A stretch of 24,279 nucleotides of DNA from a virus: the IMG/VR virus record IMGVR_UViG_3300042503_000036, positions 1 to 24,279 of that record; one strand, given 5' to 3'. Made by a program: the position numbers and the translations under genes. This document shows positions 3,262 through 24,279 of the stretch, piece by piece. A model generated the notes under the pieces. That model did no database searches. It saw nothing but the letters and a program-made list of their open reading frames with translations, and was not told the origin of the DNA. Each line of letters begins with the position of its first letter. Within the stretch, counting starts at the first letter, position 1.

Positions 3262-4149
3262 TTAAAAAGGTGTTTTAAGTTGCACTGGCGGTTTTACTCT
3301 AAAGTTCTTTAGCGGATCTACTGCGTTAATTTCAAAACCAATACCGGAGTTAAAATTACAAATAATTGGCTCATTCAAAAGCGTATGCTTTCCGCCTGTT
3401 TCTGTATCCTTGACTTTTTCCACGTTGATCCAAGTTGAATATTTCCATTCTGGATGCTTAATTAAACGGTGTATTACAAACATATCATCGCATCTATTTA
3501 AAAATGCCTTACCGCCTTCAATGTGATCCTTAAGCGGTGGTTTCAAATGTCCTTTCCAATCTCCGTCTTGATATAAATTTGCGTTCCTGCCGGATTCAGT
3601 GTTTGGATGGGTATTTATGTATAAAGTTTTTCCAGTGCTATTTACAAACTGTCTGGCGTTATTCATAAAAGTATAATTGCCATCAAAGGTCATTTGCCGA
3701 TCAAGTCCTGTGAATGGATCAATCAAACAAACATCCGCCTCTGATTGTACAAATAAATCAAATAACTCTTCTGGTTTATACAGCTTTGAATTGTCTACAA
3801 ACGTAAAGAACTGTTCTAAGTATGCGGTGTGCCTGTGAATTTCATCGTAACTTAATTGCTTGAATGGCTTACCGGAATACATCTGTACAAGATCTCTTAG
3901 TATCTGGCCTTTTTGGTTTTCTCCGGACCATAAACAAAAACTTAACCCGTGTTGTAATGCGAGGTTTAGAAAGTACCAATTAATCCAGTACGTCTTGCCT
4001 ACGTTATCGTGGCCTAAAATGATGTTTACTTGCTTAGGCTTGAACTTTAAGTGCTCGTCTAAATAGCAGCCTATACCTAAACCTTGTTTGATTTTTCCGT
4101 CTTTATAATCCAGTAAGTACTGAATTGAATCACCCTTGTTTTTTAGCAT
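3262..4149 (-). CDS. RecA/DnaB-type AAA ATPase, putative replicative helicase or RepA-like
   Basis: A 295-aa P-loop ATPase. Walker A is G46-H-D-N-V-G-K52-T53. Walker B is the hydrophobic strand ending C-L-I-D144-P. A later strand ends Y-I-N-T-H-P, placed like the sensor/Q-loop region of RecA-fold proteins. It resembles the AAA_25/RepA-like group and the C-terminal core of DnaB helicases, without a DnaB N-terminal domain. Its start overlaps the end of the initiator gene by 20 nt. An initiator followed by an ATPase is the usual phage replication pair (compare lambda O and P or DnaB-like helicases), so it most likely acts as helicase or helicase loader at the phage origin. Confidence 0.75.
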   Translation of the reverse strand: MLKNKGDSIQYLLDYKDGKIKQGLGIGCYLDEHLKFKPKQVNIILGHDNVGKTYWINWYFLNLALQHGLSFCLWSGENQKGQILRDLVQMYSGKPFKQLSYDEIHRHTAYLEQFFTFVDNSKLYKPEELFDLFVQSEADVCLIDPFTGLDRQMTFDGNYTFMNNARQFVNSTGKTLYINTHPNTESGRNANLYQDGDWKGHLKPPLKDHIEGGKAFLNRCDDMFVIHRLIKHPEWKYSTWINVEKVKDTETGGKHTLLNEPIICNFNSGIGFEINAVDPLKNFRVKPPVQLKTPF

Positions 4150-4786
4150 ATTGTCTTAGTATTTGTAATTCTCGTGGTTCTTCAAACTTAATACTTTCTT
4201 TTGGTTTAGCCCAATTACGTACTGCAGCTTTCCAATCTTTCATTTTGTTTTTACCAACCATCCATCCTTTAGATTCGTAGAAATTTAAAAATTTATGTAC
4301 GTCTAAATCAAGATCATTTTGCATACAATATTCAAGTATATCATTGAAATTAGGTACTATAAATATATTCTTTACTTCTTTACTTTCTTTTATTGGTTTC
4401 GTTTGAATTTCATTTGTGTTTCGTTTGTGTTTCACTTGTGTTTCATCTGCGTTTCGTTCAGCTTGGTAACTATCATAGTTACAAATAGTTAGCTGTGTCG
4501 TTATGTTGTCTGAAACTAATTCAATCATTGAATCATTTTGAAGCAAATTTAAAAACCTACGAACCTTGCTTTTATCCCAATTCCAACGCTTTCCCCAGCT
4601 TTCTAAGCTCATTATGCTTTGTCCTCTTTTTACCTCATACAACTTACCCTTAATCATAGTTTTGCTATCGCTATAATTAACATTAAGCAAAAGATCATAC
4701 CAAGCTTCCAGTTTACTAAATACTCGCTTTTCAGAATAAAGCCAATGATCAGTAATTGACCTATGTATTTTAATCCATCCGCTCAT
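4130..4786 (-). CDS. Replication initiator with winged-helix and DnaD/DnaT-like domains
   Basis: A 218-aa protein in three parts. Residues 1-105 hold the motif G-W-I-K-I-H-R-S-I-x-D-H-W and a winged helix-turn-helix (about 55-95, with S-W-G-K-R-W-N-W-D-K-S-K-V-R-R-F), typical of phage replisome organisers. Residues 109-135 are a polar low-complexity linker encoded by tandem 11-bp repeats. Residues 147-192 end in G-W-M-V-G-K-N-K-M-K-D-W-K-A-A-V-R-N-W, a DnaT/DnaD-like C-terminal signature. Such proteins bind the origin and recruit the helicase. The ATPase gene follows directly. The repeats inside the gene suggest that the protein binds its own coding region, as lambda O does. Confidence 0.75.
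   Translation of the reverse strand: MSGWIKIHRSITDHWLYSEKRVFSKLEAWYDLLLNVNYSDSKTMIKGKLYEVKRGQSIMSLESWGKRWNWDKSKVRRFLNLLQNDSMIELVSDNITTQLTICNYDSYQAERNADETQVKHKRNTNEIQTKPIKESKEVKNIFIVPNFNDILEYCMQNDLDLDVHKFLNFYESKGWMVGKNKMKDWKAAVRNWAKPKESIKFEEPRELQILRQYAKKQG
4397..4462. repeat. Six tandem 11-bp repeats inside initiator gene, candidate origin iterons
   Basis: On the plus strand the units start at 4397, 4408, 4419, 4430, 4441 and 4452 and follow TTTCRYTTGTG (for example TTTCATTTGTG, TTTCGTTTGTG, TTTCACTTGTG). The last unit is degenerate. The 11-bp period is close to one helical turn and is not a multiple of three, so protein repetition alone does not explain it. The array is flanked at about 4330-4396 by very AT-rich DNA that could unwind. 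This combination is the layout of an origin embedded in the initiator gene. Confidence 0.6.
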
Positions 4787-4943
4787 AAAAATCTTTTAGA
4801 ATTTGAATTAAATCCGCAACTTCTTCTTTTTCAAAATGTACTCCGTTTTGAATTGTGTTTAAAATTAATCTTCCAGAAGCAATACCAATTGAAATAGTAA
4901 ATTGTTCTTCACTTAATGTTTCATAAAATTCCTTTTTAATCAT
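4770..4943 (-). CDS. Hypothetical 57-aa protein
   Basis: The ATG at 4943 (MIKKEFYETLSEEQ) is preferred over a TTG at 4979, because the upstream segment is part of a structured RNA and a poly-T tract. The 57-aa product is acidic and helical, with an isoleucine-rich middle segment, and ends in F-Y-E-R-M-D. It overlaps the initiator gene by 17 nt and is the first gene downstream of the structured leader, so its expression may depend on read-through of that leader. No family is recognised. Confidence 0.6.
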   Translation of the reverse strand: MIKKEFYETLSEEQFTISIGIASGRLILNTIQNGVHFEKEEVADLIQILKDFYERMD

Positions 4944-4963: not shown

Positions 4964-5055
4964 AAAAAAACCCCTGCAAATCCGTAGCCTCTCACCTCTA
5001 CTTCATTACAAGGGTTAATAATTTCTTGTGGTTTTATAATGTGAGAGGAAACCAT
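4964..5055 (-). ncRNA. Structured RNA: candidate phage small RNA or attenuator leader
   Basis: Starting just after a good promoter, the minus strand carries CCTCTCAC (5048-5041), AACCCTTG (5016-5009), a hairpin GTAG/CTAC (5001-4998 and 4987-4984) whose 10-nt loop contains GTGAGAGG (4995-4988), then CAGGGGTT (4976-4969) running into a 7-T tract (4970-4964). AACCCTTG pairs with CAGGGGTT over 8 bp with one G-U, making a terminator-like stem. CCTCTCAC is perfectly complementary to the hairpin loop, giving a pseudoknot topology. The RNA would be about 90 nt if it terminates. An alternative reading is a 33-codon ORF from ATG 5055 to TAA 4954. I favour RNA because the paired segments are the only GC-rich blocks in the region. 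Confidence 0.5.
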
Positions 5056-5059
5056 AGAA

Positions 5060-5095
5060 CAAATATAACTATTTTATTTTAATAGCTGATCAAAA
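5060..5095 (-). promoter_or_regulatory. Promoter TTG-23-TATATTTG upstream of structured RNA
   Basis: The minus strand has TTTTG at 5095-5091 (TTG 5093-5091) and TATATTTG at 5067-5060, with 23 nt between TTG and the -7 box. This fits the Bacteroidetes consensus TTG/TAnnTTTG, at the long end of the accepted spacing. It overlaps the 3' end of the upstream gene. Transcription would begin near 5055, so the CCTCTCAC segment is at the extreme 5' end of the RNA. Confidence 0.65.
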
Positions 5096-23705: not shown

Positions 23706-23848
23706 TAGCGAATGTTATAAGTACCGTAGTTTTTCTTTAGGCCTAACGTTTCCATTTCGTGATATCTCAAAGCATCTATGGCGTGATCCAATCCACCGGC
23801 AGGGTTTCTGCCTCTGTTTCCTGACCTGTCAACATCCCAACAGTAATT
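23705..23848 (-). pseudogene. Displaced C-terminal tail of terminase large subunit (-1 frame)
   Basis: In the frame one base behind the main terminase frame, 47 residues read as the expected family C-terminus: N-Y-C-W-D-V-D, then P-A-G-G-L-D-H-A-I-D-A-L-R-Y-H-E-M, ending N-Y-G-T-Y-N-I-R and TAA at 23705. This holds the third catalytic Asp cluster. About five family residues between N-L and N-Y (usually I-K-E-L-R) are missing, so a short deletion, not a single-base slip, explains the break. Confidence 0.75.
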
Positions 23849-24279
23849 AGGTTTGTACTTTGTTTGGTTACTAAATACTCTTGCTGTTGCATAACATCAA
23901 TACCGTAGTTAATTGAATCTTTGCCTTTCGTTACTCCTTTAATCGTCTTTCCGTAGCGTTTAATCTCATCAATACTTTTTGGTTCTGAACTATCAGCATA
24001 AATAATAACGCCAGACGGTAGTGCTTTGGCAATATCAGAGTTAAGCATTCCATTACGGTAAACTAATTCGTTTACTATTCGCTTTCCATTCCAATTATAA
24101 ACCTCAATGATTGCTGTTGGATCATTAGTATATCCAAAGTCAAGTCCTATTCCAACCAAACGTGCATCTTGCGGTACTTTATCAATTTCTTTCCAATTCT
24201 CAAATATTACGCCCTCAAGCATACCTACTTCTCCTAATCCATACACTCGCCACCAATTAGCCCAATATGAACTCGTAGC
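23776..24279 (-). CDS. Terminase large subunit, C-terminal nuclease part, frame-disrupted and cut by window edge
   Basis: The frame is open through the right window edge; the first visible residues are ATSSYWANWWRVYGLGE. The nuclease domain is clear: G-I-G-L-D-F-G-Y-T-N-D-P-T-A-I with the first catalytic Asp, and V-I-I-Y-A-D-S-S-E-P-K-S-I with the second. After S-T-N-L (about residue 143 of the visible part) the frame yields 24 residues (ending V-D-W-I-T-P) unlike the family and stops at 23776. The third acidic motif (D-H-A-I-D-A) lies in the -1 frame just below. As sequenced, the nuclease would lack it. Terminase cuts and translocates phage DNA into the prohead, and the ATPase part is outside the window. 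Confidence 0.8.
   Translation of the reverse strand, partial: ATSSYWANWWRVYGLGEVGMLEGVIFENWKEIDKVPQDARLVGIGLDFGYTNDPTAIIEVYNWNGKRIVNELVYRNGMLNSDIAKALPSGVIIYADSSEPKSIDEIKRYGKTIKGVTKGKDSINYGIDVMQQQEYLVTKQSTNLITVGMLTGQETEAETLPVDWITP

Follow-up and report, generated by a model that had tools for sequence, protein, structure and literature searches.

A probable replication origin of the SPP1 oriL type within the DnaD-like initiator gene of a phage genome fragment

The window analyzed here, a stretch of 24,279 nt of viral DNA, very probably carries, within the gene for the phage initiator itself, a theta-replication origin of the SPP1 oriL type. The putative origin consists of an iteron array at 4397-4462 and an AT-rich tract beside it. 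A first-pass annotation had named a candidate replication origin in this gene, and the proposal was supported by repeats at the same place in related initiators, by the homology of the initiator to gp38 of phage SPP1, and by agreement with SPP1 oriL. Judged by the sequences of the relatives, the two-part layout is old and widespread, being shared by phages of many bacteria. The features are as follows.

4130-4786, minus strand: initiator gene, 218 aa, DnaD-like and SPP1 gp38-like (PHROG 2514, tblastn)
4466-4786, minus strand: winged-helix N-terminal domain, residues 1-107 (model, wHTH fold matches, iteron covariation)
4397-4462, minus strand: iteron array of six head-to-tail 11-bp units (sequence, Tandem Repeats Finder, codon null, relatives)
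4397-4407, 4408-4418, 4419-4429, written on the plus strand: array units 1-3, TTTCGTTTGAA, TTTCATTTGTG, TTTCGTTTGTG
4430-4440, 4441-4451, 4452-4462, written on the plus strand: array units 4-6, TTTCACTTGTG, TTTCATCTGCG, TTTCGTTCAGC
4356-4396, minus strand: second element, the probable unwinding element, a purine-rich AT tract (sequence, G+C drop in relatives, frame-independent motif)
4211-4348, minus strand: C-terminal domain, residues 147-192 (model; domain-swap pairs)
3262-4149, minus strand: RecA-core ATPase, probable replicative helicase partner (PHROG; phage primase-helicases)

The array units are direct and non-palindromic, with the consensus RYGAAACRCAA on the coding strand, equal to TTTCRYTTGTG on the plus strand. 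The coordinates first given for the six units were exact, but the motif was good in the inner four only, the outer two being degenerate. Tandem Repeats Finder reported 4396-4455 with period 11, 5.5 copies, and a score of 71, the top of 25 rows for the window, and 11 bp was the strongest lag among lags 8-25 across the entire window. With the protein held fixed, the observed lag-11 score was matched in 10 of 20,000 synonymous-codon permutations within the initiator gene. No second array was found in the window, which elsewhere showed just isolated one-mismatch matches. The 11-bp pitch had been taken to place all sites on nearly the same DNA face, and this holds only roughly; at 10.5 bp per turn, arithmetic gives a drift of ~17 degrees per unit, or ~86 degrees over five steps.

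The initiator matched PHROG 2514 ‘DnaD-like helicase loader’ (E 5e-28), as did 42/42 members of alignment A2, SPP1 gp38 among them. In tblastn it aligned with SPP1 gene 38 at 42% over residues 3-130 (E 4e-26). The model gave a pLDDT of ~90 or more for residues 31-100 and below 50 for the linker, residues 111-140, which is predicted to be disordered, is polar, and contains most of the array. The array encodes residues 109-130, which confirms its reported position at the linker between the winged-helix and C-terminal domains. The fold of residues 1-103 matched the RepA_N initiator 4pt7 with a Z of 7.8, a weak match that was tied or exceeded by wHTH regulators. Sequence comparison with solved structures gave nothing convincing (best E 0.012, a FadR-family wHTH), no Foldseek match reached E 0.001, and the Pfam scan of the initiator detected no family at threshold.

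The product of the next gene, 3262-4149, matched PHROG 18375 and 239 (DNA primase/helicase) with E values of 1.4e-17 and 2.5e-17, respectively, and resembled primase-helicases of Cellulophaga and Maribacter phages. This minus-strand gene is like the helicase half of Cellulophaga phage primase-polymerases, without the primase part, and shares a 20-base overlap with the end of the initiator gene. Among the nine replication-side window proteins scanned no helicase loader was recognised, the next gene encoding a RecA-core ATPase only.

The layout had first been compared with the logic of lambda O. The lambda origin works alike, but the nearest precedent is SPP1 oriL with gp38, a homologue of the window protein, rather than lambda O. 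In the available text of PMC6316719, SPP1 oriL is described as a gp38-bound site within gene 38 that combines direct repeats with an AT-rich unwinding element, and oriL and oriR are placed ~13 kbp apart; the available text of PMC5615212 gives the oriL clone as 35801-36151. In SPP1 gene 38, the homologous linker place holds an 11-bp array, and AACAATGAT-type repeats come after it. Record L092 (44,010 bp) holds 100% gp38 and was taken as SPP1. Its AAAMGACAS matches stood in 11-bp register at 35939-35980 and its 9-mers started at 35995, 36004, and 36013, all within the oriL clone if the numbering is shared with that of PMC5615212. Four more of the 12 AAAMGACAS matches in L092 were located at 4809-4909, ~12.9 kb away round the circle, followed by ATAAACAACAATGATAAACAATGAGAACAAT; distance and layout suggest that this cluster is oriR. 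The tract frame at the second cluster is broken by a stop, and therefore the second element exists outside an initiator coding frame. A 96-aa minus-strand mechanical ORF over part of this cluster was taken as chance.

The window thus resembles SPP1 in its homologous initiator, in the 11-bp array at the same linker position, in the probable location of the origin in the initiator gene, and in the AT-rich element on the same side. It differs in unit sequence (RRAAAMGACAC in SPP1, RYGAAACRCAA in the window), in having no second array, and in its helicase genes, as SPP1 has a separate loader and a DnaB-type helicase downstream (genes 39 and 40) whereas the window has the RecA-core protein only. 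Because the window has no recognisable separate loader comparable with SPP1 gene 39, the helicase loading step must differ.

Viral contigs, phage records, and genome contigs supplied the relatives, and an HMM of the N-terminal domain was then used to find the initiator genes among them. The 197 HMM matches were reduced to 195 by coverage and to 118 at 80% identity; in one relative set the initiator gene was obtained at 79/80 loci. The related initiators carried repeats at the same place, so the origin proposal withstood the refutation set for it, and their unit sequences differed, as the comparison suggested with it had called for. Of the 118 relatives, 94 were best fitted by a pitch of 11 bp and 13 by one of 12 bp (log-likelihood 8 or more), no other pitch of the 8-14 tried won in any of them, and 11/118 stayed below 8 at every pitch. 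A log-likelihood of 12 or more was reached by 91/118 initiators compared with 0/1500 control windows from other parts of the same loci. These 91 genes were used in the fourfold, G+C, and second-array tests, and 88 in the domain-swap test, three being too short. In the 96 nt after the N-terminal domain of the 118 genes, mean identity at lag 11 was 0.523, compared with 0.342 in codon shuffles, and the autocorrelation z against such shuffles was 46, 37, 21, and 12 at lags 11, 22, 33, and 44, respectively. No array clusters outside the initiator gene were found in the 91 loci scanned, with flanks of mostly 1.5-6 kb, a span from which distant oriR-like sites would be missing.

Some search seed peptides lie in the linker (DETQVKHK, NNNDNNEN, NKNVKNEK, NNGNNENK), and the prevalence of the second element is therefore inflated, most in one relative set. 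In 69 representatives whose proteins lack any seed peptide (window excluded), the array was present in 61/69 and the second element in 47/69. As the seeds were back-translated degenerately, third-base results are unaffected. Arrays of 12-bp pitch were observed at L072:5005-5065 and in the initiator genes of L041, L099, L194, and L212; this pitch keeps the reading frame, resulting in true four-residue protein repeats (QSVT in L072). The longest arrays found, of ~ten units, were those of the L035 and L168 initiator genes. The L016 initiator had more units than the window class, apparently by a 33-bp (three-unit) gain with the frame kept.

As 11 is not a multiple of 3, successive units are read in different frames, and the protein sequence of the linker would be dictated by what the putative origin DNA permits. 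Fourfold-degenerate sites equalled the leave-one-out iteron consensus in 539/648 cases, where codon usage predicted 188 (z 32), and twofold and threefold sites did so in 777/956 (478 expected). The base preceding GAAAC was T in 50/86, and in 0/45 where TGA would be an in-frame stop. Coding thus constrains the site, which otherwise prefers T. The early suggestion that an origin would explain the odd low-complexity linker was thus borne out at the fourfold-degenerate sites, and it extends to the AT-rich part.

The AT-rich DNA noticed beside the array was also confirmed, with a G+C of 0.209 at 4330-4396 against 0.361 for the window; 1.5% of 67-nt windows were equally low. Over the 91 genes, G+C showed a drop of 0.113 across the 30 nt directly 3' of the array and of 0.087 across the next 30 nt. 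The AT-rich tract is itself a conserved element. On the 3' side of the array it holds 9-mers, AAKAATGWA, common to 24 of the 27 iteron classes, and AABAATGW or RTAAAGAA was present in 94/118 tracts compared with 45/1572 control stretches. An Asn/Lys/Asp/Glu tract was encoded 3' of the array in 74/118 genes with third bases nearly fixed: its first Asn was AAC in 70/74 (32 expected), the next Lys AAG in 47/47, and then Asn AAT in 71/71. Lys codons AAG:AAA stood at 189:57 across the tract, compared with 489:1222 elsewhere. In other genes, that of the window included, the second-element DNA is read in an alternative frame and gives a Lys-Glu repeat. RTAAAGAA was counted 70 times, with 48 in frame 0, 22 in frame 1, and none in frame 2, where its TAA would be a stop; codon shuffles gave a mean of 10.9 and a maximum of 18. 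In the window tract, GTAAAGAA occurs twice on the coding strand (4376-4383 and 4368-4375), followed by AATATATTTATAG. The two successive copies are read in two different frames, once each, with a spacing of 8, not 9.

AnnA on the coding strand (TnnT on the other) was counted 1471 times against 1328 in base shuffles; this excess is due at least partly to the codon period, so the likeness to the DnaD recognition element is a lead only. PMC10201434 describes TnnT pairs, lying opposite the DnaA-trios, as the single-stranded sites to which DnaD binds in B. subtilis. We propose that in the 9-mers the T-rich strand may be the counterpart of the DnaD-bound TnnT.

The 88 arrays tested gave 27 iteron sequence classes. 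Unit similarity had a median of 0.952 in the 153 pairs of initiators alike in the N-terminal but unlike in the C-terminal domain. In the 36 pairs alike in the C-terminal but unlike in the N-terminal domain it was 0.813, which does not exceed the 0.822 of unrelated pairs. Iteron similarity had a partial correlation of 0.365 with the N-terminal domain (0/1000 permutations) and of 0.066 with the C-terminal domain (29/1000 permutations; a weak residue remains). The array forms a single module with the N-terminal domain, and the C-terminal domain is exchanged in relatives independently of the iterons. Part of this covariation could stem from physical linkage of the array to the N-terminal domain, the breakpoints lying beyond the array. 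The reader-domain columns that track iteron class comprised recognition-helix residues 72, 73, and 77, plus residues unlikely to touch DNA, the phylogeny not being removed from this comparison.

The array might instead be an operator, an initiator-bound control site that blocks the gene's own transcription and limits the amount of initiator while replication starts elsewhere. Many initiators autoregulate, and the array does lie inside the operon. However, it is positioned mid-gene and not at a promoter, it adjoins a low-G+C element, it matches the published SPP1 oriL segment, and no copies were observed near promoters in the 91 loci scanned, which makes this explanation very unlikely. It is extremely improbable that the array is another type of nucleoprotein site, for instance one used in partition, packaging, or the arrest of forks (the late function ascribed to oriR in SPP1): gp38 bound at SPP1 oriR has been proposed to stall forks, but theta replication was reconstituted in vitro from the oriL-type copy in the initiator gene (both in the available text of PMC6316719). 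That the array is only a low-complexity polar linker or a neutral microsatellite, DNA without function, is scarcely credible, since the linker is indeed polar and predicted to be disordered but the 11-bp period is not divisible by 3, bases at synonymous sites agree with the iteron (z 32), the pitch is kept across 27 unit classes, and the AT element is read in two frames; family autocorrelation, fourfold sites, and frame independence refute it as sole explanation, and the last two together with the 11-bp period rule out a protein-level repeat or microsatellite.

For the oriL-type origin that we favor, the following mechanism may be proposed. Protomers of the DnaD-like initiator would occupy neighboring 11-bp units, binding them with the winged-helix N-terminal domain, the probable reader of the iterons; plasmid initiator monomers line up on direct iterons in this way according to the available text of PMC5043065. 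The bound protomers would form a tight nucleoprotein filament straining the adjacent A-rich/T-rich tract. The tract would then open, and the initiator, or else its helicase, would probably hold the conserved 9-mers in single-stranded form. The likely helicase-recruiting part is the C-terminal domain (residues 147-192), and the RecA-core protein encoded by the adjoining gene, 3262-4149, is the probable helicase.

Like lambda O and ori-lambda, the window shows iterons and a purine/pyrimidine-asymmetric AT-rich element within the initiator gene. Lambda iterons are longer and more widely spaced than the 11-bp units. They are inverted repeats bound by O dimers (available text of PMC5043065), unlike the window units, which are direct, 11 bp long, and without inverted symmetry. 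The window also resembles Staphylococcus phage 80alpha ORF20 and Lactococcus phage TP901-1 Rep in having a DnaD-like initiator with repeats in its gene. The repeats in 80alpha ORF20 and TP901-1 Rep are of 15 bp (L275:2250-2380 and L276:2090-2180), and the 80alpha record annotates a putative origin in ORF20. Tuc2009 Rep, in which the record says the origin is contained, was best at 15 bp and had a weaker 11-bp run. From the 15-bp pitch in the more distant 80alpha ORF20 and TP901-1 Rep, it follows that the 11/12-bp pitch marks the gp38-like branch and is no law for all DnaD-like proteins. In 80alpha ORF20, AATAATGAT-like DNA was observed after the 15-bp repeats.

ORF20 of 80alpha has been suggested to carry an origin in its gene as SPP1 does (available text of PMC5499656), so the general idea of an origin inside a DnaD-like gene is already in print there. 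The RepA_N initiators (pSK41, pTZ2162, PLE RepA) have a winged-helix N-terminal domain of DnaD-related fold that binds direct iterons, and the PLE origin iteron is located in a noncoding region (both in the available text of PMC7145576); the window protein showed only the weak fold match and no sequence match to them. The window is a further case of the known SPP1 oriL-type origin. In the literature searched, with most subscription papers outside its scope, we found no description of the family-wide 11/12-bp pitch rule, the reader-site pairing, or the shared second element.

All main window genes are on the minus strand, which renders the GC skew uninformative; the cumulative curve showed no turn at 4.4 kb and fell almost throughout. 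The capsid protein resembles those of Nonlabens phages, and together with the Cellulophaga/Maribacter-like helicase core this makes a flavobacterial host likely. We take 23776-24279 (minus strand) to reflect a terminase-like gene in or just beyond the record end. As the 24-kb record ends in or just before this gene, the genome is probably incomplete, and another origin outside the fragment is possible. The non-coding stretch 4965-5065, upstream of the initiator operon, holds CCTCTCAC and GTGAGAGG ~50 bases apart, a possible operator or terminator.

With somewhat more doubt than confidence, we suggest that phages of Bacteroidota, Firmicutes, and Proteobacteria may share a two-part origin code, in which a fast-diverging 11/12-bp array is read by a co-inherited winged helix and is joined to the near-universal AAKAATGWA, constant across iteron classes and reading frames. 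The 9-mers would then be a strand-specific single-strand recognition sequence, the counterpart of the DnaA-trio/DnaD element of bacterial oriC, loading the helicase on one strand.

Most phage origins are unmapped, and here a probable origin becomes readable from sequence for a large initiator family, so the two-part layout may help to locate replication starts in phages that have yet to be studied. The abundance of Asn, Lys, and Glu in the linkers of DnaD-like phage proteins would be explained as origin DNA and not as protein design. The 27 iteron classes, each paired with a reader domain, offer a ready set for a winged-helix specificity code, and the second element is a concrete, mutable target for studying how DNA is opened by phage initiators and how they select the strand on which the helicase is loaded.
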